Under the pieces are notes generated by a model that had not been told where the DNA came from, ran no database searches, and worked only from the letters and a program-made list of their open reading frames with translations. A stretch of 64,000 nt of DNA from Chloroflexota bacterium. GTDB taxonomy: Bacteria > Chloroflexota > Limnocylindria > Limnocylindrales > CSP1-4. Where the stretch lies: NCBI GenBank assembly GCA_026004015.1, contig BPIH01000006.1, positions 1 through 64,000 of the forward strand. Reading direction: 5' to 3'. Below are positions 11,837 through 34,999 of this stretch, piece after piece. The position numbers and the translations under genes are program-made. How positions within the stretch are numbered: position 1 is the stretch's first letter; every line of letters starts with the position of its first letter.

Positions 11837-12649
11837 TCAGTAGATGAGCGTCGTGCCCTCGGGAAACTCGAAGTCGAAGGCGGTCGGCGGGAGGACCGCG
11901 TCGGGTTCGAGCCGGACGACCTCCGCCCATCGGGTCCAGCTCCCGCCGATCGTCTCGACGAGACGGGTGATGAGGCCCGTCGCCGCGTCCACGGCGAGGT
12001 CGATCCGGAAGTCCGGCCGGTCGGCGACGCGCTCGATGGTCCGGGGGTGGGCGCAGCCGAGGAGGATCGCCTCGCGGCCGGCGATCTCGTCGGTGCCGAG
12101 GATCGTGCAGGCGCCGGTGGCGAGGACGTTCTGGCAGTAGCCAGCCGGGTGGACGAAGACCTCGGGCAGGCTCTCGGCCGGGAGGGCGGTGAGCGGGACG
12201 TAGACCCGCGACATGCCGGGCAGGTCGGGATCGTCGAGGCCGACGAGGCCGCGTCGGAGGGGCCGGACCGCGCCGCGCCGGTCGCGGGAGGCGTAGGTCC
12301 GGACCATCTCGCCGTCGGAGCACCAGACCTCGACCGCGGCGACCGGTCCGGGGCCCGGGATCCGGCGGGTGACCCGGGCGTGGCCGACATGGCGGAGGAC
12401 GAGCTCGGTCGTCGTCGTCTCCTCACCGGCGGCGGTCCGCGTCGTCTCCTCGATCTCGAGGCGGAGGGTCCGGAAGCGGAGCTCGGCGTCGCGCATGAAG
12501 TCGAAGAGCTCCGGGACAGTCGGCAGGCGGTCGGCTGGCAGGGCCGGGAGCTCCGGCTCGGGGAGGGCGAGGCCGGCCTGGGCAGCGAGGAGACGGCGGT
12601 CCGGGGCGATGGACCGGGCGCCGGCCCGGTCCCAGAGGCGGGTCGTCAT
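11837..12649 (-). CDS. conserved hypothetical protein, possibly LolA/RseB-like fold
   Basis: 270 residues from the ATG at 12649 (MTTRLWDRAGARSIAPDRR) to LPPTAFDFEFPEGTTLIY. No signal peptide or membrane helix is evident. From residue 60 it alternates strand-like segments (FRTLRLEIEETTRT, VEVWCSDGEMVRTY, FRIDLAVDAATGLITRL) in a pattern like the incomplete beta-barrel of LolA/RseB-type proteins. Two Cys occur close together in HPAGYCQNVLATGACTILG and a third in LLGCAHP. The family is uncertain. It follows the repeat-rich gap and lies 92 bp before the nuclease gene on the same strand. Confidence 0.55.
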   Translation of the reverse strand: MTTRLWDRAGARSIAPDRRLLAAQAGLALPEPELPALPADRLPTVPELFDFMRDAELRFRTLRLEIEETTRTAAGEETTTTELVLRHVGHARVTRRIPGPGPVAAVEVWCSDGEMVRTYASRDRRGAVRPLRRGLVGLDDPDLPGMSRVYVPLTALPAESLPEVFVHPAGYCQNVLATGACTILGTDEIAGREAILLGCAHPRTIERVADRPDFRIDLAVDAATGLITRLVETIGGSWTRWAEVVRLEPDAVLPPTAFDFEFPEGTTLIY

Positions 12650-12684
12650 CGGCCGGATTGTAGCGGCCCGGGATGGGGTCGGGC

Positions 12685-12748
12685 CGCGGCGGGCCGTCCG
12701 TGTCGCGGCGGGCCGTCCGTGTCGCGGCGGGCCGTCCGTGCCGGACGG
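12685..12748. repeat. three 19-bp direct repeats ending in a small hairpin
   Basis: Three head-to-tail copies of CGCGGCGGGCCGTCCGTGT occupy 12685-12703, 12704-12722 and 12723-12741, the last with one change at its final base. The end of the third copy forms the inverted repeat CCGTCCG-TGC-CGGACGG at 12732-12748. The array lies just upstream of the gene that starts at 12649 on the minus strand, so it may be part of its leader or a recombination scar near the transposase remnant. Confidence 0.8.
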
Positions 12749-12768
12749 AGTCCCGTCGCTGGTCAGGT

Positions 12769-12931
12769 ATTCACCCCGTGCATGCAGGTCGGGGGTGGAC
12801 GTCCGAGCCGGCGCGGATACGGGCCTCCCATTCACCGGGCGCATGGAAGCCGCTGGCAGTTGGCCGTGCCGGGGCCATCCATGCACCGGACGAATGCTCA
12901 CCGGGTGGGGGCCTGTCCAACATTCACCAGG
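12769..12931. repeat. cluster of degenerate ATTCACC-GG-GCGCAT elements
   Basis: Five related short elements: ATTCACCCCGTGCATG at 12769, ATTCACCGGGCGCATGG at 12830, the inverted form CCATGCACCGGACGAAT at 12879, GCTCACCGGGTGG at 12896 and CATTCACCAGG at 12921. The second and third are near mirror images of each other. They fill the non-coding gap between the hypothetical gene and the transposase remnant. No coding potential is convincing here. Confidence 0.6.
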
Positions 12932-12949
12932 AGGCGGCTCGGGCGGAGG

Positions 12950-13498
12950 ACGACGCGCTGCGATCCGACGCGGCACGTGGGCGAGGACGTCCCGGATGGT
13001 GTGGGTCCGACAGCGCTGCCAGGTCGCCCCCAGGAGCGTCTGCCGGATCGCCTCGCGGAGGCCGACATGGGCGTCCGAGATGACGAGAACGACACCCGAC
13101 AGGCCGCGCGCGACGAGCGAGCGGAGGAAGGCCGTCCAGAGCGGCCCGGTCTCGGCCGAGCCGACCTCGAGCCCGACGACCTCGCGCTCGCCGCGCTCGT
13201 TGACGGCGATCGCGACCAAGATGGCCATCGAGACGATCCGACCGCCCTCCCGGACCTTGGCGACCTTGGCGTCGAGCCACAGGTACGGGTAGCGGTGCTC
13301 ATCGAGGCGACGCTCGCGGAAGGCGCGGACCTGTCGATCGAGCTCGCTGCAGAGGCGGCTGACTTCGCTCTTGCTGATCCCCTCGACCCCGAGGGTCCGA
13401 ACGAGGGCATCGACCTTGCGGGTGCTGACGCCGAGGACGTAGGCCTCGGCGATGACGGCGAAGAGGGCCCGCTCCACGGCCGGCCGGAGCGTGGTCAC
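12950..13498 (-). pseudogene. IS256/mutator-type transposase remnant, truncated at both ends
   Basis: About 180 residues of a mutator-type transposase survive: AVIAEAYVLGVSTRKVDALV, GISKSEVSRLCSELD, YLWLDAKVAKVREGGRIV and VLVISDAHVGLREAIR, then ATWQRCRTHTIRDVLAHVPR. WLDA and ISDAH carry two of the three catalytic acids; the final Glu region and the N-terminal DNA-binding part are missing. The downstream break runs into the ATTCACC repeat cluster, and the upstream break lies near 13498. I see no terminal inverted repeats, so this is a decayed insertion. Confidence 0.85.
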
Positions 13499-18198: not shown

Positions 18199-19086
18199 TT
18201 ATCGGCGGCGACGAAGCTCGGCGGGGAAGGCGAGGAGGATGGACGTCAGCGCCGCGAGCGCGACGACGACGAGCGCCGGACCAGGGACTCCTGTTCCTCG
18301 GCGGGTGACGACGTCGGTCGCCGGCGGGGTCACCGGTGGCGTGCCGGCCGCGGGGAGATTCCCGGCGGTGGGGGTGGGGGTCGGGGTGGCGCTCGGTAGC
18401 ACCTCTTGGGTCGGCGTCGGCGACGGCGAGGGGCTCGGGCTCGGCTCGGGGCTCGGGCTTGGCGACGGGCTGGGGCTGGGGGTCTCGTAGGTAATGAGGA
18501 CGCGGATCTGGTCGACGGCGACCGCGTCGACGCCGAAGGGGTCGATCCGATCGCTTCGGATCTCGAGCCGGAAGTTCGCGTCGTCGAGCTCGCTCGGGTC
18601 CCATGTTCGGGCCCAGGGGTCGCTCGATCCTCCCAACGTGTACGTCGTCAGGCTGTCGACGAGGGCCCCGGTGTCTCGGTAGTCGGTCCAGTGGGCGCCG
18701 GCGTCCCATGAGAGCCGGACTTGGAGTTGCCACGCTTTGTCGTCCTCCAGCGGCGCGCGGGCCGCATCGATCTCGACGGTGATCCCGCCGATGCTGGAGC
18801 CGGGCGGGATCGAGAAGCCAAAGCCGCCGTAGCTCTGGTCGGCGCCGTCCGAGCTCGCCGTCGCGTAGACGTTGTCCCTCACGAAGGCGTTCGAGGGGTT
18901 CGTCCACTCATTGCTCGGCGACCCCGTGGTGGTCGGGGCGTGCCAACTCGTGTCTGCCGCCGATGTCGATCGTGCGGCGATCATGACCCACACGAGCGTG
19001 CCGGCCGTGAGGATGGAGGCGGCGATGCGGGCGTTCCGGTGGAGGGATCGAACTCGGCGCGGTGGTCGGCTGGTCGCTGAGGTCAT
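18199..19086 (-). CDS. secreted, wall-anchored protein with one beta-rich module
   Basis: 295 residues. An N-terminal Arg-rich region and helix (SILTAGTLVWVMIAARSTSA) form a signal peptide. The mature part begins [18 protein letters not shown] and has about 150 residues of beta-rich module ([52 protein letters not shown]). A Pro-Ser linker follows, then [16 protein letters not shown], a hydrophobic helix and RRRR. That order matches a sortase-type anchor with LPAAG in place of LPxTG. The module is almost the same as the N-terminus of the larger protein at 19350. Cell-surface adhesion or structure is likely but inferred. Confidence 0.8.
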   Translation of the reverse strand: MTSATSRPPRRVRSLHRNARIAASILTAGTLVWVMIAARSTSAADTSWHAPTTTGSPSNEWTNPSNAFVRDNVYATASSDGADQSYGGFGFSIPPGSSIGGITVEIDAARAPLEDDKAWQLQVRLSWDAGAHWTDYRDTGALVDSLTTYTLGGSSDPWARTWDPSELDDANFRLEIRSDRIDPFGVDAVAVDQIRVLITYETPSPSPSPSPSPEPSPSPSPSPTPTQEVLPSATPTPTPTAGNLPAAGTPPVTPPATDVVTRRGTGVPGPALVVVALAALTSILLAFPAELRRRR

Positions 19087-19224
19087 CGATCGTCTGTTAC
19101 GGTCGGTGGACGCTGGTCATCGTCTCGGGCCCCGAACGCCTGTGCGCGAATTCTAGCCACCGACCCCGGTGTCCCGTGGTCGGACGACACCGTGAAGCCC
19201 ACGGTTACGAGCCGGTGGACAAGA

Positions 19225-19257
19225 GGAGGCCGCCGCTGCCTCGGCGCGGCGGCCTCC
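19225..19257. terminator. GC-rich hairpin downstream of the vWA gene
   Basis: A perfect 12-bp stem, GGAGGCCGCCGC paired with GCGGCGGCCTCC, with a nine-base loop. It lies about 95 bp past the stop of the gene on the minus strand and before the next minus-strand gene. No U-run follows, so it may be an intrinsic terminator of the high-GC type or an mRNA-stabilising stem. Confidence 0.6.
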
Positions 19258-19270
19258 CGGGAACCGGGGT

Positions 19271-19304
19271 GGCAGGGTGCGTCAGGGGGACAACGCACCC
19301 TGCC
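19271..19304. terminator. second hairpin downstream of the vWA gene
   Basis: A perfect 12-bp stem, GGCAGGGTGCGT paired with ACGCACCCTGCC, with a ten-base loop, 46 bp beyond the stop at 19350. Together with the hairpin at 19225 it separates the two anchored-protein genes, so they are probably expressed as separate units. Confidence 0.65.
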
Positions 19305-19349
19305 GGGGGTCTCGGGGACCCCTACGTCAGGTGCCCTTCCCGGCGGGCC

Positions 19350-21455
19350 TCATCGGCGCCGCCGGAGTTCGGCGGGCACGGCCAGGAGGACGAGCGTGAG
19401 GAGAGCGAGCCCGGCGACGATCCCGACCAGGAGCGTCGCCGAGACGCTGCCGGAGGCGATCGTCACGGTGTCCGTGGCCGGCGGGGTCACCGGCGGCGTG
19501 CCGGTCGCCGGGAGGACCTCACCCGTGGGGCTCGGGCTCGGGCTGGGCGACGGGCTCGGGCTCGGCTCGACCGACGGCTCCGGGCTCGGGCTCGGGCTGG
19601 GCGAGGGGCTCGGGCTGGGCGACGGTCCGGTGTTCGTGAAGGTGCACGTCACGACGTCGCCTGCTCCCAGGAGGATCGCCACCGCGTTCTGGCCTGCGAC
19701 AAAGTCGCCCTTCCCAAGGAACAGACCGGTGTCGTCGCCCACCCATCCGAACTGAACCTCGCCCCCTCGGTTTTGAGCTTGTTGGCTAACCGTGCACGCA
19801 ATCCCCGTCAGCTCCCATCCATCGGGCATGGACTCCTCCCAGACGACGTACTCGCCGGGTGCGAGGTTGGTGCAGGTCTCGCTGTCACCGTCATTGAGGC
19901 CAAAGTCGTTGAGGCTGCAGTCGCCCCCAAAGCCTTCTCCGAGGAACCAGAAGCCCTGACCACCGGCAGGATCGGTCTCCTTGACGATGGTGATGCTGCC
20001 CAGCTCCGGCGTCGGCGTCGGCGTGGGTTCCGGCGTCGGGGTTGGGGTCGGCTCCGGCGTCGGCGTCGGCGTGGGTTCCGGCGTCGGGGTTGGGGTCGGC
20101 TCCGGCGTCGGCGTCGGCGTGGGTTCCGGCGTCGGGGTTGGGGTCGGCTCCGGCGTCGGCGTCGGCGTGGGTTCCGGGCACTCGATGGCCTTGAAGAGGT
20201 CCGAGGCAAAGGAGCTGAAGTCGGCCGGGAAATACGACCCGGCGCCGATCTCCGTCATGACCGTCTGGGCCCACTGGGCGTCACCGGCGTCGGAGAAGGG
20301 CAGATTCGTGTCACCCGGGTCGTCGGGGCTGCTCAGGTAGACGGCCTTGACGATCCACCCGGCGCTCCGGGCGCTGTCGGCGGCGCCAATCGCCGCGTTG
20401 GCGGCCTGGAGCCAGACCGACGGATTGGAGAGGGTGCCGCCCGGCGGCACGTTCGGCGACCCGTCGGTGATGACGAACATGATGTTCGGCACGCCGGCCC
20501 GATCGCCGCTCGTGTTGCTCATCGCGGTGGTGATCCCGGCCTCTGTCGGGGTGTTGCCCGACGGGCTGCTGAGGGTGTCCACCGCGCTGAGGAACGTGGA
20601 GCTGTCGACGAAGCCGCTCGTGATCGTGCTCGCGGTCGTGCCGTTGAAGCGGGTCCCGGCGTAGAGGCCGTTGCCGCCGGCACCCTGGAAGGCGTTGACG
20701 AAGTTCGTGATGCCGGCCTTCAGATCGGGCAGGTTCGAGGGGCGCGAACCCTGCTGGCCGATGGAGCCGGACATGTCGATGACGAAGGCGAAGTCGGCGG
20801 CCTCGCAGACCTCGCTCGTGAGATCGGGATTGGCGACCTGGTGGCCGTCGATGGTCCGGTAGGTGACGCGGACCCGGACTTGGTCAACGGAGACGGTGCG
20901 AGGACCCGAGCCAGACGTCCGATTTGCCCGGATCTCGAGGCGGAAGTTCGCGTCGGAGAGCTCGGTGGGATCCCAGGTGTGACCCCAGGTGTTGCTCGTC
21001 CCGCCGAGCTGGTACGTGACCTCGGTCGTGCTGAGGTCGGGCGTGTCGAGGCGATTGCTCCAGCTGGAGCCGCCGTTCCACGACAGGCGAACCTGGACCT
21101 CCCAGTCCCCGCTTCCCGACGAGGAACGAAGCGCGTCCACCTGGACGGTGATCCCGTCGATGATCGAGCCGGGCGGGATCGAGAAGCCAAAGCCGCCGTA
21201 GCTCTGGTCGGCGTTGTCCGAATTCGCCGTGGCGTAGACGTCGTCGCTCGCGAAGGCGTTCGACGGGTTCGTCCACTCGTTGCTCGGCGAGCCCGTCGTC
21301 GTCGGGGCGTGCCAGCTCGTGTCGGCCGCGAGGACGAAGCTCCCGGCGATCGCCGTCGAGAGGAGGATGCTTCCTGTGAAGAACACGGCGGCGGCGAACG
21401 CTCCCCGGCGTCGCCGTCGGGCCCGTACGTGCGGGCGGTGGGTCGGTGATTCCAT
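19350..21455 (-). CDS. von Willebrand A-domain surface protein with sortase-like anchor
   Basis: 701 residues, intact. A basic N-terminus and signal helix ([19 protein letters not shown]) are followed by the beta-rich module (from [18 protein letters not shown], about residues 43-205). The vWA domain has the MIDAS motif [10 protein letters not shown] and a later [18 protein letters not shown] linker follows, then a SpaA/prealbumin-like domain ([32 protein letters not shown]), then a Pro-Ser linker. It ends with [16 protein letters not shown], a membrane helix and RRRR. GGGGAG lies nine bases before the ATG. The order resembles pilus-tip or fibre adhesins of Gram-positives. No sortase gene is in the window. 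Confidence 0.87.
20004..20178. repeat. 48-bp tandem repeat coding the Pro-Thr linker
   Basis: About 3.6 exact copies of a 48-bp unit run from 20004, each coding two PEPTPTPT octapeptides on the minus strand. Copies appear identical at the DNA level, which points to recent expansion or slippage. Copy number probably varies between strains and changes the length of the stalk between the vWA domain and the SpaA-like domain. Confidence 0.9.
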
Positions 21456-21742
21456 CGATATCGACTCCCCTAGAGTGGGTTGATGAGGGCCTCCCCCGGT
21501 TCGGGCCCCCTGTGCCCGGCTGCCCCATCGGTACCGGAACCGGCTAGGCCGTTCGTCGGGGGTCGGACGTACCGTACCGCGCGTGACCCGGAAGGGCCAT
21601 TACAACAACCCTTACAGTTCCGGCTTCTGGTGCATCGGGGCGCCAGGTACCGGGCTGGAGCGGGCAGGCGGCCGTGGCGGAGCAGCAGCTCGCGCTGCGG
21701 TACCGCTGCCAGGAGGGGCCTCGTCACGAGCGGCTCGACACG

Positions 21743-21779
21743 GACGACCCCGGCGCCCGGGGAGGTGGCGCCGGGGTCG
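21743..21779 (-). terminator. strong hairpin downstream of the TadG-like gene
   Basis: A 14-bp perfect stem, ACGACCCCGGCGCC paired with GGCGCCGGGGTCGT, with a nine-base loop, about 55 bp after the stop at 21834. It should end the tadE-tadE-tadG transcript before the vWA gene, which therefore needs its own promoter in the 380-bp gap that follows. Confidence 0.75.
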
Positions 21780-21833
21780 TGGACGAGGATGCGGGGCGAA
21801 ACCGGGGGCGTTCGCGCCCGGACCGATCGCCCG

Positions 21834-23984
21834 TCAGGGCAGGACGAGGTGGACCGGGTTGCCCCGAATCTGGACCTCCCAGGTCGTGACGTCGAAGGAA
21901 CTGTTCGAGGTCGAGCCGCTCATGTTGTAGCGGATCTTCCACCAGCCCGGTTCCTGCTCGCCAGGCGGCTGGGGGGCGGTATACGTGGTCGGGATCGGGA
22001 TCTCGATGGTCAACCAGCAGCCGTTGAAGCGGGACGAGCCGCCGGTGTTCGTCGTTACCGACGTCACGCCAGAGCCCGTCGTCGCGTTGCAGTCCGTGGC
22101 GTTCGCGTTCGTCGTCCCCCGTTGGGCTCGGTAGTTGAAGGTCGCCGGTGTGTAGCCCGTCGTCGTCGGCATGAGGATCTGGAGGTTCGCCGCCAGGTTG
22201 CCCGTGTCCCCGGGATCCCAGAGGTTGATCTCCATCGTCTTGCCGGCGTGGACGGCGTCGATCTGGGCGAGGTAGAAGACCGAGGCCTGGCCGCCCTGGA
22301 GGGGCGAGAATGCCTGCATGGCGCCGATGCCGTAGACCCGCGGCGACCCGCCGCTCGCGCGAGCCCAGATGGCGAAGCTGTTGTGGCCGTTCGAGCCGAG
22401 CTGATCGGTCGGGCTGTTGGGGTCGGTCGAGGAGGTCCGGACTCGGTACGTCCGGCCCGTCGGTCCGCCGGAGAGGCCGGAGGCGAGCTGCCACCAGCGG
22501 TTGTGCCAGTAGCGGCCGTCGGCCGGGTTCGTCACGTCGCCCTGGGCGCAGCTCGGCAGCCCGGACGGTCCGCCGAGGGTCGTGTCGGAGGCCTGGATCC
22601 GCCGGAAGAGGTTCCCGGACGACGCGACGAGGGTGTCGTCGTCGAGGTTGTAGGGCGTGTTCTGCGTGTCGTAGAGGTAGTAGAAAGCGCTCGTGGCGGC
22701 GGTCCCGCTGAACCAGCGGTCACCGGTCCCGTAGCGGCCGCTGCCGGCTGTTGCGCAAAAGACCGGATCGAAGATCCAGACCTCGCCGTTCGTCGCCCCG
22801 GGTGGCAGCTCGACGGCGTAGTCGTAGTGGCTGTCGGGTTGATACTCGGGGTTCGCCTGCGAGGTCCGGGTCTCGTAGTACGGAAGGTAGGCGTCTCCGT
22901 TCACGTCCTCGGCGCCCTGGTTGAGCATCGTGCCCCAGAAGCCGCGCGGATTGAGGGCGTCGCCGTAGGGGCTCGTCACGTCCTGGTCGGGGATGAAGGT
23001 CGAAGTCTCGTAGTGGACCCGGACCCGGACCCGATCGAGGTACGTCGTCGAGCCGTTCGTGCAGGCGGTCCCGGGATCGATGTACTGCACCCGGATCCGG
23101 AAGTTCGTGTTGTTCAGCTCGGTCGTCGCCCAGCTCGAGCGGCCCCACAGATCGCTCGAGCCGCCGAGGACGACCGGCGGCTGCTCGCTGTCGGTGAGGG
23201 CCACGAAGCGGTTCGTCGTCGTCCAGTTCGTCCCGCCGTTCCATGAGAGCTCCACGCCGAGCCGGCAGCCCGAGGGATCGGACGATCGGGCCTCAACCTC
23301 GACCTCGATCCCGGTGATCGTCGCCCCGCTCGGGAACGAGAAGTTGAAGGTCTGCCACGCCTGGTAGGGGTTCGAGGTGCTGTTCTTCGTCGCGTAGACG
23401 TTGTCGCTGACGTATGCGTTCGACGGATTCGACCAGTTGCTCGGACTTGCCGTGTTCGTCGGCACCCGCCAGCCGGTGTTGCCGGGCGTCGTCACCGTCG
23501 TTCCGCCGTTCGGCGTCCGGAGCGTCCCGAACACCCCGTAGTAGTTCTCCGGGCTCCCCATCGGGACCGGCAGGACGAACTCCGCCTTCGCCGACCGCTT
23601 CGCCGGGATCGAGCTGATCCCGAAGACCCGCATGAAGAACGTCCCGACCGGGGCCGTGATCTCGACCTTGAGACGACGCGGGTTCGTCGGGTCCTGGTAG
23701 GGCGTCACCGTCACCCCACCGACCCCATCCGTGTAGCCGTTCTTCGCCGCCTCGCCCCGGGCGACGCTGACCGCCAGCGGCACGTCACCGGGCAGGTGGA
23801 CCACGCCGGCCAGGGCGGCGGCATCGGCGGCGCGCTGGATCCGAAGGTTGTTCGCCCAATACCAGCTGATGTCGACGACGATAGCCGTCATGCCGACGAA
23901 GACGAGGAGCGAGAGGGCGAAGATCGGGATGATCTGGCCGCGCCGCCGCTCGGGAGCGGGACGCGGGCGGGGCGAAGCATCCAT
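21834..23984 (-). CDS. large TadG-like pilus-associated protein with beta-rich module
   Basis: 716 residues from the ATG at 23984 (MDASPRPRPAPERRRGQIIP). The N-terminus QIIPIFALSLLVFVGMTAIV is a TadG/TadE-type membrane anchor, followed by LRIQRAADAAALAGVVHLPG, the standard Flp-pilus TadG motif. Residues of about 155-310 hold the module found in the two anchored proteins (SPSNWSNPSNAYVSDNVYAT, NFSFPSGATITGIEVEVEA, VRVRVHYE). The last 380 residues are a large secreted region with many aromatic residues, ending GNPVHLVLP. It lies 47 bp after the TadE-like gene. Usual TadG proteins are shorter or carry a vWA domain, so this architecture is unusual. Confidence 0.82.
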   Translation of the reverse strand: MDASPRPRPAPERRRGQIIPIFALSLLVFVGMTAIVVDISWYWANNLRIQRAADAAALAGVVHLPGDVPLAVSVARGEAAKNGYTDGVGGVTVTPYQDPTNPRRLKVEITAPVGTFFMRVFGISSIPAKRSAKAEFVLPVPMGSPENYYGVFGTLRTPNGGTTVTTPGNTGWRVPTNTASPSNWSNPSNAYVSDNVYATKNSTSNPYQAWQTFNFSFPSGATITGIEVEVEARSSDPSGCRLGVELSWNGGTNWTTTNRFVALTDSEQPPVVLGGSSDLWGRSSWATTELNNTNFRIRVQYIDPGTACTNGSTTYLDRVRVRVHYETSTFIPDQDVTSPYGDALNPRGFWGTMLNQGAEDVNGDAYLPYYETRTSQANPEYQPDSHYDYAVELPPGATNGEVWIFDPVFCATAGSGRYGTGDRWFSGTAATSAFYYLYDTQNTPYNLDDDTLVASSGNLFRRIQASDTTLGGPSGLPSCAQGDVTNPADGRYWHNRWWQLASGLSGGPTGRTYRVRTSSTDPNSPTDQLGSNGHNSFAIWARASGGSPRVYGIGAMQAFSPLQGGQASVFYLAQIDAVHAGKTMEINLWDPGDTGNLAANLQILMPTTTGYTPATFNYRAQRGTTNANATDCNATTGSGVTSVTTNTGGSSRFNGCWLTIEIPIPTTYTAPQPPGEQEPGWWKIRYNMSGSTSNSSFDVTTWEVQIRGNPVHLVLP

Positions 23985-24031: not shown

Positions 24032-24709
24032 TCATTGGGTCGGATTGAGGGCCATGACCGTGCGGTCGGAGATCGGCAGCGAGGCCGGGCCGCCACCCCC
24101 GAAGAATGCGCCGACGGCGGCCAGCGGAGTGACGAACTGGTACGTGTACTGGAGGCTCACCCCGAGGGAATCGGGGTTCGCCGTGGCGTTCGTCCGCTCG
24201 CATGCCGGCCAGCCCACCGTCTGCGGCGAAAAGTCGAGGGCTCGGCCGTCGATCATCGGCCCGCCAGCCGGGTCGTAGCGCCAGACGTTCACCTTGCCGG
24301 TGACCTCGCCCCCCGTCGCCGTGGCCTTGTAGATGCGGATCTCGACGATCCGGTTCAGGGCGATCGGCGAGCCCGGCGAGGCGAGGACCCGCTGCACGGC
24401 GGCAATGATCTGGGGGTCGACCGTCGTCCAGTTCGGCGACTGGCCGGCGCCACAACCAAGGGGACCTCCGCCGTTGGCGAGGGCGGCACCGGCCCGGGCG
24501 CCCTCGCGGGTCGCGTAGCTGATCGTGAGATGGTGGTCGAAGACGAACCCGAACTCGAGCATGCCGAGGAGAAGGAAGAGGAAGAAGGGGACGACGGCAG
24601 CGAACTCGACGAGCCCCTGCCCGCCCTCCCGGCGGCGGCGGGGACTGCGGCTGTCTCGTCCGGAACTGGAGGACACTCGGAATTGGGGGCTGAAGCCAAC
24701 GACGCTCAC
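24032..24709 (-). CDS. TadE-like minor pilin
   Basis: 225 residues from a GTG at 24709 that overlaps the preceding stop (GTGA). After an Arg-rich cytoplasmic start comes GGQGLVEFAAVVPFFLFLLL, the prepilin-like hydrophobic segment with the conserved Glu of TadE pseudopilins. HHLTISYATREGARAGA follows, the classic TadE motif. The remaining part is extracellular and has three Cys (GCGAG and WPACERT). It is the second gene of a tadE-tadE-tadG set. No TadA, TadB, TadC or CpaB genes are visible, so the pilus machine must be elsewhere. Confidence 0.85.
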   Translation of the reverse strand: MSVVGFSPQFRVSSSSGRDSRSPRRRREGGQGLVEFAAVVPFFLFLLLGMLEFGFVFDHHLTISYATREGARAGAALANGGGPLGCGAGQSPNWTTVDPQIIAAVQRVLASPGSPIALNRIVEIRIYKATATGGEVTGKVNVWRYDPAGGPMIDGRALDFSPQTVGWPACERTNATANPDSLGVSLQYTYQFVTPLAAVGAFFGGGGPASLPISDRTVMALNPTQ

Positions 24710-25344
24710 AGGATCGGCTCCATGACCATGACGTTCGACCGCTCGAAGGCGTAGCCGCTTCCGCCGAGGCCAGCGACGCCGTTCAGCGGGGTCTTCCAGC
24801 TGTGGACGTAGGAGATCCGCACGCCGACCCGATCGAGGCCGTCGTGGGGCGACCCGCAGCCGGCGAGGATGTTGCAGCGGGCCGAGGCGGGATAGCCGTT
24901 CTGGGCGAGCCGGTAGGGGACGGTGATGACCGTTCCGTCGGGGTACGTGCAGGTCGTGGCGTTCGGACCGCTCGTGGCGCCGGTGCGGACGTAGACCTGG
25001 GCGTTGCTCCCGATCTGGACGCCGTTGCGGTCGGCCCAGAAGATCGTCACCTGCTGGATCGCCGACCGATCGGAGGGTCCCCGGACCTCCTGCTCGATGG
25101 AGTCGAGGATGATGCAGTCCGCGCCCGTCCCGTTCCCGGCTTCGGCGGCGAGGAGGGCCGCGTTCCGGCTGGCGTAGTTGATGGACAGGACGGCGTTGAA
25201 AACGAAGGCGAACTCGATGACGCTCAGCGTCAGGACGACGAAGAGCGGCAGGACGAGAGCGAACTCGACGAGCGACTGGCCTGCCGACCGGGCGCGCGCC
25301 TCCGCGGCGCGACTCCGGCGGGCGAAGGGTCCCGCATGGATCAC
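24706..25344 (-). CDS. TadE-like minor pilin
   Basis: 212 residues with GTG start at 25344 (VIHAGPFARRSRAAEAR). It contains SAGQSLVEFALVLPLFVVLT and NAVLSINYASRNAALLAAEA, the TadE transmembrane and helix motifs, and four extracellular Cys (ADCIIL, ATTCTYP, ARCNILAGCGSP). It is the first gene of the pilin operon, with overlap to the second TadE gene. An in-frame upstream extension exists but lacks a better start context. Likely secreted and processed by a prepilin peptidase encoded elsewhere. Confidence 0.83.
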   Translation of the reverse strand: MIHAGPFARRSRAAEARARSAGQSLVEFALVLPLFVVLTLSVIEFAFVFNAVLSINYASRNAALLAAEAGNGTGADCIILDSIEQEVRGPSDRSAIQQVTIFWADRNGVQIGSNAQVYVRTGATSGPNATTCTYPDGTVITVPYRLAQNGYPASARCNILAGCGSPHDGLDRVGVRISYVHSWKTPLNGVAGLGGSGYAFERSNVMVMEPIL

Positions 25345-25565
25345 GGCATCGTTTCCCCGGCGATGTGGTTGGTGGGCCGAGGCTAGGCGGAACCCCCTTA
25401 CAGGAGCAATAGCAGGCGGTCCCCGAAGGCACCGCCGGGGCGGACGTCCGGGTTTTTCGGTGCGACCGGGCACCGCTGCGGCTCGCTCGCAGGGGTGCCC
25501 TCGACGGTCACCGGCCGCGCCCGATCGGGAGCTGGTCGACCCCTTCGGCCGCGCGCGGCAGGGTC

Positions 25566-28070
25566 TCAGTGCCCCGCGCGGACCCGGGCCGCTCGTGCCT
25601 GCCCCCTCGGGCGCGTCCGATCGGCCGACCGGCGGACTCCGCCCTCGCGCCCCGGTGCGGCTTCACTCTCGGCCGGGATTCGGAGCGCGAAGCAGGCGCC
25701 GGCCGCTCCGCCGCGGTCGACGTAGACGAGATCACCACCCATGAGGCGGGCGAGGCTTCGAGCCAGGCTGAGGCCGAGGCCGGTGCCAGTCTGGTGACCG
25801 GCCGTCGAGCCACGGACGAAGCGGTGGAAGATGCGGCCGCGCTCGCCGGGCGGGACGCCAGGACCTTCGTCGAGGACGGCGATCTCGAGCTGTGCCGTGG
25901 GCTCGGACGGGGGCGACTGGCCGGGCGGCGCCGCCACGCCGGGCGGCGCGGCCTCCGCCCCGCGGAGCTCGATCCGAACCTCGATCGGCCCGGTAGGGGC
26001 GTAGCGGACGGCGTTGTCGAGGAGGATCCAGAGGATCTGCTCGAGGGCTCGTCGGTCGGCCAGAACCGGGCGGCCGTCCGTTCCATCGTCGATCCGGAAG
26101 GGCCGCTCCACGTCGAGCTCCTGCCAGACGGCTGCCGCCACCTCGGCCGGAACGAGGGGCTCGGCGGCCAGGTCGACGGTGCCGGCCTCGAGCCGACTGA
26201 GGGTCAGGACCTGGTCGACGAGCCGAGCGAGGCGAGCGGCCTCCGTCCGGATGGCCTGGGCTCGCCGGGCGAGCTCGGGGTCGGCGGCGACGGGGGCGGC
26301 CTCGGCCAGGTCGTCCACGGCGAGGCCGATGGTCGTCAGGGGCGTTCGAAGGTTGTGGCTGATGCTTCGGAGGAACTGGCGCTGGAGCTGGTTCAGCCGC
26401 TCGAGGCGGAGGGCCCGTTCGGCTGCCGTGGCGTACCGTTCGGCGTCCTCGATGGCCGAACCGATGAGCAGGGCGACGAGGCGGAGGGAGGCCTCGTCGG
26501 CGGGACTCCAGGCGATCGATGCGCCGGGACGGGGGGGTCCGCTCGGGTCTTCGTGCGCGCTTCCGCTTCCAGTTCCTCGCTCCTTGACCGTCGGAGAGAG
26601 ATGGGCGACGAGGCGACGAGCACCGGCTCGCGAGTCGACCATGCGTCGCTCGCCATCGAGGACGAGGGGATCGAAGGGGATGGGTGGCGGCCGCGGGTCG
26701 AGGTCGGCCACGACGAATCCCGCGGAGGCCGACGGCATCTCACGCACGTCTCCGAGTGGAGCAGTCGCGACGTCGGCGGGGGCGCGAGCGGATCGCGCGA
26801 AGACGGTGCCGTCCGCCTCGACGATGACCGACCAGCGGAGGCCGAAGATGTCGTCGATGGCATCGAGGAGGGCGGTCGCGACTGCATCCGGCGGGCGGTC
26901 GACGGAGGTTTCGGCGACCGCCTCGAAGGAGCGCCGGATCGTCGTCTCGCGCCGTTCGAGGGCGGTCAGGAGGCGGCCGAGGGCTTCGACCAGTCGATCG
27001 ATGGGGTCCTCGTCATGTGTCGGGATCGGGACTGGCCGGCGACCCTCGGCGATGGCGAGGAGACTGGCGTGGACGGCAGCCAGGCGGCGGGCGAGCACCC
27101 GCGACAGCCAGAGGGCGAGGACGAAGGCTCCGAGGGCCATCGTCCCCGCGAGGGCGGCGACGATGGCCGGAAGCTGGCCCGTGGCTGCCTGGGCGGCCGA
27201 GAGGGACGCCGAGAGGAGGAGCTCGCCAGCTGCCGGAGGCGTCGGCTCCTCGCCGGTCGTGGGCGATTCGGCCGTGCCCGTCTCGTTGCCGTCGGGGAGT
27301 CGAACCCGGACAACGAGGAACCCGGCGTGCTCGCCCGAGTCGGGTAGGCCGTCGAGGGGGGCGAGCGTGTCGAGGACGTCGGGGTTCGTAGCGACGCTCG
27401 CTCGACCCGAGCTGTCGAGGATGGCGACGTCGAATCCGGTGAGACCGCGCAGCTCGACGGCGAACTCGGCGTCGAGTCGCCGGGCGAAGCCGAGGCGAGC
27501 GGGTGCGGCCACGACCTGGCCCGCTGGGGCGGCCTCGCCCTGATCGGTGACGGCGGCGATGGCGACGAGGTACACGCCATCGACCATGGGCCGGGCGGTC
27601 GTCCCTTGGAGAGCGGTCGTCGCCAGGGCGATCAGGTCGGCGGTCAGGGACGGACGGCCGGCCGCGATGGACCGTTCGCCGGCTACGAGGACGGCACCGC
27701 TCAGCTGGCCTTGGTCGACGAGGAACTCCAGGACGTCGGCGCGGATGACATCGAGTTCGTCCGCAGCCACGGCGGCGGCGAGCTGTGGCCAGCCGGCGTA
27801 GCTTGTGGTCAGGCGATCGAGATCGGCCGCGGAGCGGGCGAGAACGGCTCTGGCCGTGACCGCCGCCTGCTCGGCCCGGAGTCGGGCATCCTCGTGGAGG
27901 GCGGTGCCCAGCCGGACGTAGGTGAGGCTGCCGACGCCGAGGGCCGGCAGGACTGCTGTCACGACGAGGGCCACGGCCGTCAGTCTCCGGAGGCTCGGGC
28001 CGCTCTGCCGGCTGCTCCCGGTGGCCCGGCGACCCGGGCGCTCCCCCTGGGGGTTCCATGGCCCCGTCAT
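25566..28070 (-). CDS. sensor histidine kinase with extracellular domain
   Basis: 834 residues. Membrane helices lie near residues 25-50 (LTAVALVVTAVLPALGVGSL) and 300-325 (AIVAALAGTMALGAFVLALW), enclosing a sensor region of about 250 residues (SYAGWPQLAAAV, possibly CHASE4-like). After a HAMP-like linker comes a GAF-like region (LLDAIDDIFGLRWSVIVEAD). Then come the HisKA phospho-acceptor SISHNLRTPLTTI, the N-box WILLDNAVRYAP, the G1 box VLDEGPGVP and the G2 box GTGLGLSLARSLA. It overlaps the response regulator stop (ATGA). It probably controls the surface genes beside it or potassium/envelope stress, but only position supports that. Confidence 0.9.
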   Translation of the reverse strand: MTGPWNPQGERPGRRATGSSRQSGPSLRRLTAVALVVTAVLPALGVGSLTYVRLGTALHEDARLRAEQAAVTARAVLARSAADLDRLTTSYAGWPQLAAAVAADELDVIRADVLEFLVDQGQLSGAVLVAGERSIAAGRPSLTADLIALATTALQGTTARPMVDGVYLVAIAAVTDQGEAAPAGQVVAAPARLGFARRLDAEFAVELRGLTGFDVAILDSSGRASVATNPDVLDTLAPLDGLPDSGEHAGFLVVRVRLPDGNETGTAESPTTGEEPTPPAAGELLLSASLSAAQAATGQLPAIVAALAGTMALGAFVLALWLSRVLARRLAAVHASLLAIAEGRRPVPIPTHDEDPIDRLVEALGRLLTALERRETTIRRSFEAVAETSVDRPPDAVATALLDAIDDIFGLRWSVIVEADGTVFARSARAPADVATAPLGDVREMPSASAGFVVADLDPRPPPIPFDPLVLDGERRMVDSRAGARRLVAHLSPTVKERGTGSGSAHEDPSGPPRPGASIAWSPADEASLRLVALLIGSAIEDAERYATAAERALRLERLNQLQRQFLRSISHNLRTPLTTIGLAVDDLAEAAPVAADPELARRAQAIRTEAARLARLVDQVLTLSRLEAGTVDLAAEPLVPAEVAAAVWQELDVERPFRIDDGTDGRPVLADRRALEQILWILLDNAVRYAPTGPIEVRIELRGAEAAPPGVAAPPGQSPPSEPTAQLEIAVLDEGPGVPPGERGRIFHRFVRGSTAGHQTGTGLGLSLARSLARLMGGDLVYVDRGGAAGACFALRIPAESEAAPGREGGVRRSADRTRPRGQARAARVRAGH

Positions 28071-28801
28071 CGGTCGTCCGACGGCAGCGGCTCCCCTCCG
28101 GCATCGGCCGGCTCGGCGCGTTCGAGCCGATACCCGCCGCGCGGATCGGTCAGGAGGTAGCGCGGATGGTCGGGATCGACCTCGATCTTCTGGCGGAGGC
28201 GGCGGATGGCCACCCATGCGTAGGCAGGGTCGGCTCGGTCCGAGCGGCTCCAAACCTGGGCGAGGAGGTGGTTCGTGGGGACCGTCTGCCCGAGGGTCGC
28301 GGCCAGGGTGTGGAGGAGCCGCGTCTCGGTCGGAGAGAGGCGAACCGGTCGTCCGGCGACGATGGCCGTCCGTCGCCGCAGGACGAGGGTGAGGTCCGGT
28401 CCCAGAACGACCTCCTGGGCGGGGAGTCGATCGTAGAGCCGCCGAAGGACCCGGCCGATGCGGGCGGCGAGCTCAGGGTAGTGGAAGGGCTTGGTAACGT
28501 AGTCCTCGGAGTAGCGGGCGATGAGGTCGACCTTCGCCTCGGGCTCGTTCACCGCCGAGAGGACGATGATCGGCAGATCGGCCCGCTTCTTGACTTCCGC
28601 GGCCACGTCCTCGCCGGCCATGTCGGGGAGCATGAGGTCGAGGAGGACGACGTCCGGCCAGCGGGCGTCGACGGCGGCCACCGCCTCCCGGCCGGAGAAG
28701 GCGACGGTGACATCGAAGCCGTCCCGCCGGAGTCGATCGGCGAGGAGACCGGCGAGCCGGACGTCGTCGTCGACGAGGAGGACGTGGGCGGGCGGTCTCA
28801 T
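28067..28801 (-). CDS. OmpR/PhoB-family response regulator
   Basis: 244 residues. The receiver domain has the acidic pair in LLVDDDVRLAGLLA, the phospho-acceptor Asp in DVVLLDLMLPDMAGED, Ser in IIVLSAVNEP and Lys in YVTKPFHYPEL. The C-terminal winged helix (VRLSPTETRLLHTLA, VWSRSDRADPAYAWVAIRRL, YLLTDPRGGYRL) is of the OmpR type. It is the first gene of the two-component operon and overlaps the kinase start. The lipoprotein gene lies 10 bp upstream on the same strand and may be co-transcribed. Confidence 0.93.
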   Translation of the reverse strand: MRPPAHVLLVDDDVRLAGLLADRLRRDGFDVTVAFSGREAVAAVDARWPDVVLLDLMLPDMAGEDVAAEVKKRADLPIIVLSAVNEPEAKVDLIARYSEDYVTKPFHYPELAARIGRVLRRLYDRLPAQEVVLGPDLTLVLRRRTAIVAGRPVRLSPTETRLLHTLAATLGQTVPTNHLLAQVWSRSDRADPAYAWVAIRRLRQKIEVDPDHPRYLLTDPRGGYRLERAEPADAGGEPLPSDDR

Positions 28802-28811
28802 GGGAGATGGG

Positions 28812-29597
28812 TCACGGGGAGTTCTTCCCGTTCTTGCCGGAGGGGCTCGGCTTCTGGCCCTGCCCCGGTGGGGTGCTCGCCTGGCCGGGTGGGGTACCAC
28901 CGTGCCCCGGTGGTGTGCTCGCCTGCCGGGGGGCCCCTGCCCCGGGGGTGCTCGCCGGGCCGCCCCCTTGACCCTGTCCCGGTGGTGTGCTCGCCTGCCC
29001 CGGTGGTGTGCTCGCCTGGCCGGGTGGGGTACCACCGTGCCCCGGTGGTGTGCTCGCCTGCCCCGGTGGAGTGCTCGGACGCCGGCTCGGCGGCTCGGGC
29101 GCCCCCAGTTTCGAGGGGCGGCCGGAGGGCGCACTGCTCGCGGGCGTTCCCCCCGCGACGTCCGCCCCGACCGAGCCCTCCTGAACGATGACGTAGGTCG
29201 GCGGCCCCTCGCTGGAAACGGAAACCGAGATGAGGCCCGACTGCCTCCGGAACACCCGCCACGTGCCGACCCGGCGAACGAGCTCCCACCCTGCCCGCGC
29301 CAGTTCCGCCGCATACCGTTCGGCGACGACGTCCGGTGGATCCATCGAGCGATAGGCGACGAACGCCTGATCTGCATCCTTGCCGGGCCTCACCCCGCCG
29401 ACGTCGAGGGTCGCCCCGGGCAACGCCGGCACCCCGGGCAGGCTGCCCACCGGGGTGGGCGACGGCGGCTGCTGGCAGGCGGCCGCGGAAACGAGGATCG
29501 CCGCCAGGAACGCGACGGTCCTCCGGTCGGGGCGCCCGAATCTCGAGTGCCGCCGGCGTTGAGACGACGGTGGGCACACGACGCAGGCAGAGCCCAT
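28812..29597 (-). CDS. lipoprotein with C-terminal TPPG repeats
   Basis: About 261 residues if started at the ATG at 29597. The signal segment [20 protein letters not shown] ends in a lipobox-like SAAAC. The middle region ([59 protein letters not shown]) resembles small secreted alpha/beta proteins found in lipoproteins of unknown role. From about residue 170 on, it is built of (S/G)TPPG(Q/H)(A/G) repeats and ends with a Lys-rich [11 protein letters not shown] tail that could contact teichoic or nucleic acids. It lies just upstream of the two-component genes and may act as an accessory sensor. The start codon is uncertain. Confidence 0.65.
28855..29078. repeat. imperfect CCCCGGTGGTGTGCTCGCC repeats coding TPPG units
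   Basis: About ten imperfect units based on CCCCGGTGG(T/G)GT(G/A) spaced 18-24 bp encode (Q/H)(A/G)(S/G)TPPG on the minus strand. A longer block, from the CTCGCCTGGCCGGGTGGGGT stretch onward, occurs at about 28876 and again at about 29008, showing duplication of a larger unit within the array. Confidence 0.75.
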
Positions 29598-29688
29598 CGA
29601 GAGCCTCGCCTCGGGAGTTGCGCAGGTGGCGACGTCGCGCCGACGTTGCATGGCTACCGTTGCCCCCGGTCCGGAACGTGGCCGGACT

Positions 29689-29701
29689 AGTGTACGACAC
29701 T
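29689..29701. promoter_or_regulatory. palindrome AGTGT-ACG-ACACT upstream of the thiolase
   Basis: A 13-bp element with five-base arms lies between the divergent lipoprotein and thiolase genes, about 70 bp before the thiolase -10 box. Its form suits a dimeric regulator such as a TetR- or GntR-type protein. It is short enough that chance is a real possibility. Confidence 0.35.
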
Positions 29702-29772
29702 CGGCCGCTGCGACGAGGGCTTCGCATGGTCGCCGGTGCCAGCCGGCACCGGCTCGCCGTCGGAGGGCCACC

Positions 29773-34070: not shown

Positions 34071-34999
34071 CCGAGGACTCCGCCGCAGCCGGACCGCCTG
34101 CCGTGCCCGCCGGGCCCGACGGCGTTCGGGTCGTCGTCGTCATGCCCGCCTACAACGCCGCCAAGACCCTCGAGCGGACCTACGCCGACATCCCCCACGA
34201 CGTCGTCGACCACGTCATCCTCGTCGACGACGTCTCCGCGGACGGAACCGTCGAGATCGCCCGCCGGATCGGCCTCGAGGTCATCGTCCATCGCCAGAAC
34301 CTCGGCTACGGCGGGAACCAGAAGACCTGCTACGACGCCGCCCTCGCCGCCGGGGCCGACGTCGTCGTCATGCTCCACCCCGACTACCAGTACGACGCGA
34401 CCCGGATCCCGGACCTCGTCCGGCCCATCGTCGCCGGAGAGCGCGACCTCGTCCTCGGGAGTCGCTTCCTCGGCGATCCCCTGGCCGGTGGGATGCCGCG
34501 CTGGAAGTACGTCGCGAACCGCTTCCTCACCACCGTCGAGAACCTCGCCTTCGGGCTTCGGCTCTCGGAGTACCACACCGGCCTCCGGGCGTACAGCCGC
34601 CGGCTCCTCGAGGCGATCCCCTACCACCGGAACAGCAACGACTTCGTCTTCGACCAGGAGCTCATCGCCCAGGTCGTGGCCCTCGGTCTCGGCCACCGGA
34701 TCGGCGAGATCGCCGTCCCGACCCGCTACTTCGCGGAGGCGAGCTCGGTCGGCTTCCGCCGGAGCGTCGTCTACGGCTGGTCGACGCTCGCCGTCGTCCT
34801 CCGCTACCTCCTTCATCGGGCGGGCCTTCGGACGACCCGGCCTTCGGCCCCGTCGCGGTGGCCGAGGGAGCGGCGCCGGCGCGTCGCCGAGCGGCCGCGA
34901 CTGGGCCGACCCAGAGCGCCGACGGCGGCCGACCCCACCCCGCCCGCCGGGCTATCCGCCGGGGCCGGCCGAGAGCCGGAGGACCCAGACCCCCGCTGA
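34067..34999 (+). CDS. family 2 glycosyltransferase (dolichyl-phosphate mannosyltransferase-like)
   Basis: 310 residues. The GT-A fold is clear: VVVVMPAYNAAKTLERTYAD, VILVDDVSADGT with nucleotide-binding acids, NLGYGGNQKTCYDAALAAGA, and MLHPDYQYD in place of the DxD motif. The acceptor part follows: YHTGLRAYSRRLLEAIP, then NDFVFDQELIAQ. No membrane helices are clear, though VVYGWSTLAVVLRYLLHRAG may associate with the membrane. The last 45 residues are Arg- and Pro-rich and overlap the convergent gene, so a late frameshift is possible. It likely makes a polyprenyl-phosphate sugar for the adjacent membrane protein. Confidence 0.88.
   Translation: MTEDSAAAGPPAVPAGPDGVRVVVVMPAYNAAKTLERTYADIPHDVVDHVILVDDVSADGTVEIARRIGLEVIVHRQNLGYGGNQKTCYDAALAAGADVVVMLHPDYQYDATRIPDLVRPIVAGERDLVLGSRFLGDPLAGGMPRWKYVANRFLTTVENLAFGLRLSEYHTGLRAYSRRLLEAIPYHRNSNDFVFDQELIAQVVALGLGHRIGEIAVPTRYFAEASSVGFRRSVVYGWSTLAVVLRYLLHRAGLRTTRPSAPSRWPRERRRRVAERPRLGRPRAPTAADPTPPAGLSAGAGREPEDPDPR

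Follow-up and report, generated by a model that had tools for sequence, protein, structure and literature searches.

A predicted jelly-roll domain found both in a TadG-like protein and in two neighbouring surface proteins of a Chloroflexota bacterium

In a 64,000-nucleotide stretch of DNA from a Chloroflexota bacterium (the window), a TadG-like protein (P0003) and two surface proteins encoded next to it (P0001 and P0002) carry the same beta-rich module. This raises the question of whether the three proteins assemble together or bind the same ligand through the module, as an earlier note made from the sequence alone had proposed. The genes are arranged in the order ECH, unk17.4 (an unnamed 264-aa gene), P0001, P0002, TadG, TadE, TadE, histidine kinase (HK), response regulator (RR) and thiolase, and those from P0001 to RR lie on the strand opposite to ECH and unk17.4 (Table 1).

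Table 1. Positions in the window of the module copies, the proteins that carry them and the adjoining genes
Feature	Position	Strand	Remarks
Module copy 1 (in P0001)	18481-18957	-	
Module copy 2 (in P0002)	20853-21326	-	
Module copy 3 (inside TadG-like P0003)	23004-23483	-	predicted jelly roll
P0001	18199..19086	-	hydrophobic N-terminus, module, Pro/Ser linker, LPAAG, transmembrane segment, RRRR; from translation
P0002	19350..21455	-	hydrophobic N-terminus, module, vWA, PT repeats, SpaA-like, LPATG, transmembrane segment, RRRR
vWA domain of P0002	20181..20795	-	PF00092, E 1.4e-9; end set by G180 alignment
SpaA_4 prealbumin-like domain of P0002	19629..19994	-	PF24514, E 1e-8
P0003, TadG-like minor-pilin-type protein	21834..23984	-	PF13400, E 5.6e-10; insertion site located against TadG proteins lacking the module
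TadG-family conserved C-terminal domain in P0003	21837..22976	-	no Pfam model
TadE-like minor pilin	24032..24655	-	PF07811, E 1.8e-13
TadE-like minor pilin	24706..25473	-	PF07811, E 8.8e-12
CHASE4-HAMP histidine kinase	25566..28253	-	syntenic with TadE-TadE-TadG in relatives
Response regulator (receiver + Trans_reg_C)	28067..28780	-	

The module is about 160 residues long and is located at the N-terminus of P0001 and P0002 but in the interior of P0003. The homology among the three copies is far beyond chance: pairwise BLASTP gave 43% identity between the modules of P0001 and P0003 (E 2e-31) and 46% between those of P0002 and P0003 (E 1e-29), which bears out the claim that the proteins at 18199 and 19350 (N-terminally) and the one at 21834 (internally) have a module in common. 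The first two proteins had been described as nearly identical. They share 58% identity over their first 202 residues (E 2e-68) and only 65% within the module. These three copies are the only ones in the window's genome (G000, 55% complete), and all of them lie in the window. Neither Pfam nor NCBIfam has a model covering the module, and sequence searches of the PDB returned nothing significant.

An AlphaFold2 model of the module built from 11 sequences (mean pLDDT 90.4, pTM 0.87) consists almost entirely of beta strands and adopts a jelly-roll fold. When this model was compared with the PDB using Foldseek, the highest-ranking matches were mainly carbohydrate-binding modules of the families CBM4, CBM16, CBM22, CBM28 and CBM61 (E 7e-5 to 2e-3), at TM-scores of only about 0.4-0.54. 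Among viral structure predictions the TM-score rose to 0.78, the matches being proteins of uncultured Caudovirales and other phages, and many further viral matches are tail fibres. The jelly roll is predicted with confidence, and its nearest structural matches are carbohydrate-binding modules, which is part of what the earlier note itself had named as speaking against its reading. The module is predicted to be a jelly roll of the carbohydrate-binding-module type, and it is this predicted fold that suggests sugar binding; a different ligand or a role as a structural spacer would be possible as well. It resembles the jelly-roll families CBM4, CBM16, CBM22 and CBM61 in its predicted fold and in being attached to secreted enzymes, and it differs from them in that it has no sequence-family match, in that the TM-score is at most about 0.54, and in that sugar binding is a prediction.

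In a sample of 301 genomes from the phylum to which the window belongs, the module turned up in 20; counting only the 216 good genomes, the figure is 18. Its carriers comprise S8 proteases (subtilases), a chondroitinase-B-like protein, a metallophosphoesterase, PKD/vWA proteins and a GH25 protein (lysozyme) of Micrarchaeota. Micrarchaeota was also the sole relative matched in a pattern scan of contigs, for which narrow patterns derived from a three-row alignment were used. Moreover, the module is present in proteins from virus contigs, either at the N-terminus or in two copies. One such case is a 1665-aa protein on an IMG/VR contig (L102, 3933-8930) with two copies. A tblastn search of phage and plasmid sequences gave no match. 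To a large extent, this is the situation that the earlier note had set against its own proposal, namely a common carbohydrate-binding-like fold scattered in unrelated secreted proteins. The module is a widespread exchangeable part of secreted proteins, probably a binding domain, and it defines a widespread jelly-roll family that is still without a Pfam name. Its conserved hydrophobic and aromatic core, its very diverse contexts and the lack of a catalytic signature would also suit a domain that binds no ligand itself and serves as a structural spacer or for stability, so that binding would be left to the vWA domain and the TadG C-terminal domain. We consider this quite unlikely, since both the presence of the module in polysaccharide-acting and phage-like proteins and its repeated gain and loss at one site in TadG (see below) fit a binding role better.

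The assignment of P0003 as TadG-like was confirmed by the Pfam Tad family (PF13400), which matches residues 16-61, an N-terminal pilin-like hydrophobic segment. The module is placed between this pilin-like part and the C-terminal domain, and Pfam detected no VWA domain in P0003. As a single-sequence AlphaFold2 model of the C-terminal domain reached a pLDDT of 35, its fold was left out of the argument. Directly upstream of the P0003 gene are the two PF07811 genes, and this arrangement is kept in relatives, as are the order TadE-TadE-TadG and the HK/RR pair. A CpaB-TadZ-TadA-TadB-TadC cluster is located on another contig (C4) of the window's genome. Two further observations concern the flanking DNA. 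The protein adjoining the response regulator (28812-29771) ends in repeats, and similar repeats are found at the same place in the relative G335 (L123, 6621-7127), where they overlap other open frames. The frame at 11837-13498 begins with a partial Mutator-family transposase (PF00872, profile positions 100-268) followed by an unrelated C-terminal part, and from its sequence it looks like a transposase remnant.

A search with the C-terminal domain alone recovered TadG from 38 of the 118 genomes of the class, and 31 TadG-carrying genomes were compared. Nine of them encode a long TadG containing the module (G000, G005, G016, the divergent G022, G135, G326, G333, G353 and G356). The gap between the PVPMGSP motif and the C-terminal domain measures about 200-230 residues with the module and about 30, up to about 50, without it. 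At the loci examined, the module always occupies the same site. In a TadG tree calculated with the module left out, its presence or absence changes four times, and at least three of these changes are forced by well-supported branches, which suggests at least three to four gains or losses. The module-less TadG of G018 is nested inside a module-bearing group and is encoded in the same gene order, immediately following unk17.4. Given the fixed site and the patchy gain and loss, the module is therefore optional in TadG, an insert that can be exchanged. TadG orthologues with and without one domain at one site represent a clean natural experiment, which supports the notion that the tips of Tad pili are adapted through the exchange of adhesive domains. 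In this lineage Tad pili have hardly been studied; the literature searched contained no paper combining Limnocylindria and pili. In G135, the module-bearing TadG (L074/L024, G135:C28, about 34226-34540) is broken into two frames and includes a single ambiguous residue, and this may be an assembly error.

The vWA domain of P0002 has a MIDAS motif (DMSGS...T...D), as read from the sequence. The C-terminal anchor of P0001 is 65% identical to that of P0002 over 54 residues. With such an anchor but without the vWA and SpaA domains, P0001 is, judged from its sequence, a shortened paralogue of P0002. The sorting-like C-terminal motif is present as LPATG in P0002, but in P0001 it reads LPAAG. A sortase search gave no hit in the window's genome (55% complete), but hits above the cut-off in 12 of 25 relatives. 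Matches to PARP, internalin and TonB were discarded as matches to Pro-rich linkers. LPXTG-anchored adhesins with vWA and SpaA domains at pilus tips are known from the RrgA and SpaC type (PMC12607857). P0002 resembles them in its MIDAS vWA, its SpaA-like domain and its tail of LPATG, transmembrane segment and arginines. It differs from them in having the jelly-roll module at its N-terminus, and the incomplete genome showed neither a sortase nor genes for a sortase-pilus backbone.

In a tree of the module, the TadG-type and vWA-type modules are located on one side (84/89) and the enzyme-type modules, with some 15 additional residues in common, on the other; the former two types thus appear to group together, albeit weakly. 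The modules of P0001 and P0002 pair firmly (99/93). Could the adjacency simply be the footprint of local shuffling, the module of P0001 and P0002 being derived from the adjacent TadG gene, or the other way round? The P0003 module does show its highest identity to its window neighbours (46%, to P0001) and not to TadG orthologues, and AU tests did not reject a local origin, i.e. monophyly, of the three window copies (p-AU 0.125 and 0.293). A common origin of the vWA-type modules was, however, not rejected either (p 0.168 and 0.49), and a tree in which all four form one clade is just as good (lnL difference 0.11, p-AU 0.49). Since an identity of 45% makes a recent copy unlikely, and since the same module-vWA architecture occurs in G335 and in the distant G180, local shuffling seems improbable.

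The finding of three adjacent copies in one genome lends weight to the proposal that the TadG tip co-assembles with the anchored vWA proteins by homotypic contact of the module, or that both bind the same ligand. When the module-bearing TadG loci were inspected (flanks of about 5-12 kb where the contig allowed, but to one side roughly 1 kb in G333 and G016), a second module gene was found near TadG in none of the eight other genomes within these flanks, and only one of the nine has a module-vWA protein. Besides G000, this architecture is known from G180 and G335, the latter being the only other member of the class to have it, with 48% identity in the vWA part. In G335, the module-vWA gene adjoins ECH-unk17.4-HK-RR-thiolase, which is the neighbourhood seen in the window. 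The vWA protein is thus linked to the HK/RR locus in both class members carrying it. TadE-TadE-TadG, however, are missing between unk17.4 and HK on this contig (L123, G335:C117, 1-9134), where the module-vWA gene stands beside ECH, and no PF13400 protein was found in the G335 genome (84% complete). Likewise, none of the TadG proteins of G180 carries the module. MAG incompleteness weakens these absences. As module-vWA proteins occur without a module-bearing TadG, and as no second module gene was seen near TadG elsewhere, obligate co-assembly is unsupported, and so is a dependence of the vWA protein on TadG. The locus shared with G335 and the weak grouping of the TadG and vWA modules remain in its favour, yet on balance we regard co-assembly or a common ligand as unlikely. 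A more elaborate version, in which a dedicated module subfamily serves as a docking or shared-ligand domain, so that a Tad pilus on retraction would pass what it has caught to the surface vWA adhesin while HK/RR senses or controls the process, appears very unlikely. A joint TadG-vWA system is possible, but as a conserved unit it is not supported.

A different kind of surface protein is encoded in G022 (L075, G022:C118, 8084-12274). This 1396-aa Ig-repeat protein, with Big_3_5 matched in 10 stretches, lacks the module and sits between TadG and unk17.4, i.e. at the place of P0001 and P0002. The place fits an exchange site for surface proteins. A general rule that the position 3' of TadG always holds a surface protein was dismissed: such proteins were seen in the window, in G022 and possibly in G333, but not in G018, G005, G326 and others.

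From these results, the account that we favour as probable is that of a Tad tip minor pilin with a grafted adhesion domain, encoded beside anchored vWA adhesins that carry the same kind of domain. The locus gives the impression of an adhesin cluster, not of a machine of a new type. The module in the TadG-like protein would have been grafted at the fixed site between the N-terminal segment and the C-terminal domain. By analogy, the two TadE-like proteins and TadG probably make up the tip complex of a Tad pilus, whose binding target would be altered by the graft; if the modelled fold is a guide, that target would most likely be a surface glycan or a polysaccharide. P0002 would act as a separate adhesin, membrane- or wall-anchored, in which the module and the MIDAS vWA domain are presented on a SpaA-like stalk, with P0001 as its shortened form. 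The three genes would lie together because they belong to a sensor-regulated adhesin locus, possibly under shared control, and not because their products need to build one structure.

The statement that no system of this form had been described was too strong. TadE/F/G minor pilins have been modelled as tip complexes in which the TadG backbone presents a modular domain (PMC12075869), and CpaL, an orthologue of TadG, takes part in surface sensing and contains a vWA domain (PMC12607857). In Streptococcus sanguinis, a grafted vWA domain makes the modular type IV pilin PilB an adhesin (PMC8179133), and a glycan-binding lectin module does the same for PilC (PMC9934059). Since modular pilins and Tad tips are already known, the new part is the unnamed jelly-roll domain in a probable modular Tad tip protein. 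With the customised Tad tips of Myxococcus (KilL/KilM/KilN, PMC12075869) and Caulobacter (CpaL/TadG, PMC12607857), the locus shares two TadE-like genes, a large TadG-like protein with a modular extra domain and the full Tad machinery in the genome. In contrast to these, the extra domain is an unannotated jelly roll in the middle of the protein, neither a vWA domain nor C-terminal, the lineage belongs to another phylum (Chloroflexota) and the tip location is assigned by analogy; unlike classical TadG/CpaL, P0003 itself contains no vWA. S. sanguinis PilB (vWA) and PilC (lectin) (PMC8179133, PMC9934059) likewise have an adhesive domain grafted onto a pilin-type carrier, and there, too, vWA and sugar-binding-like domains meet at one locus, whereas in the window TadG serves as the pilin-type carrier and the vWA domain belongs to an anchored protein of its own.
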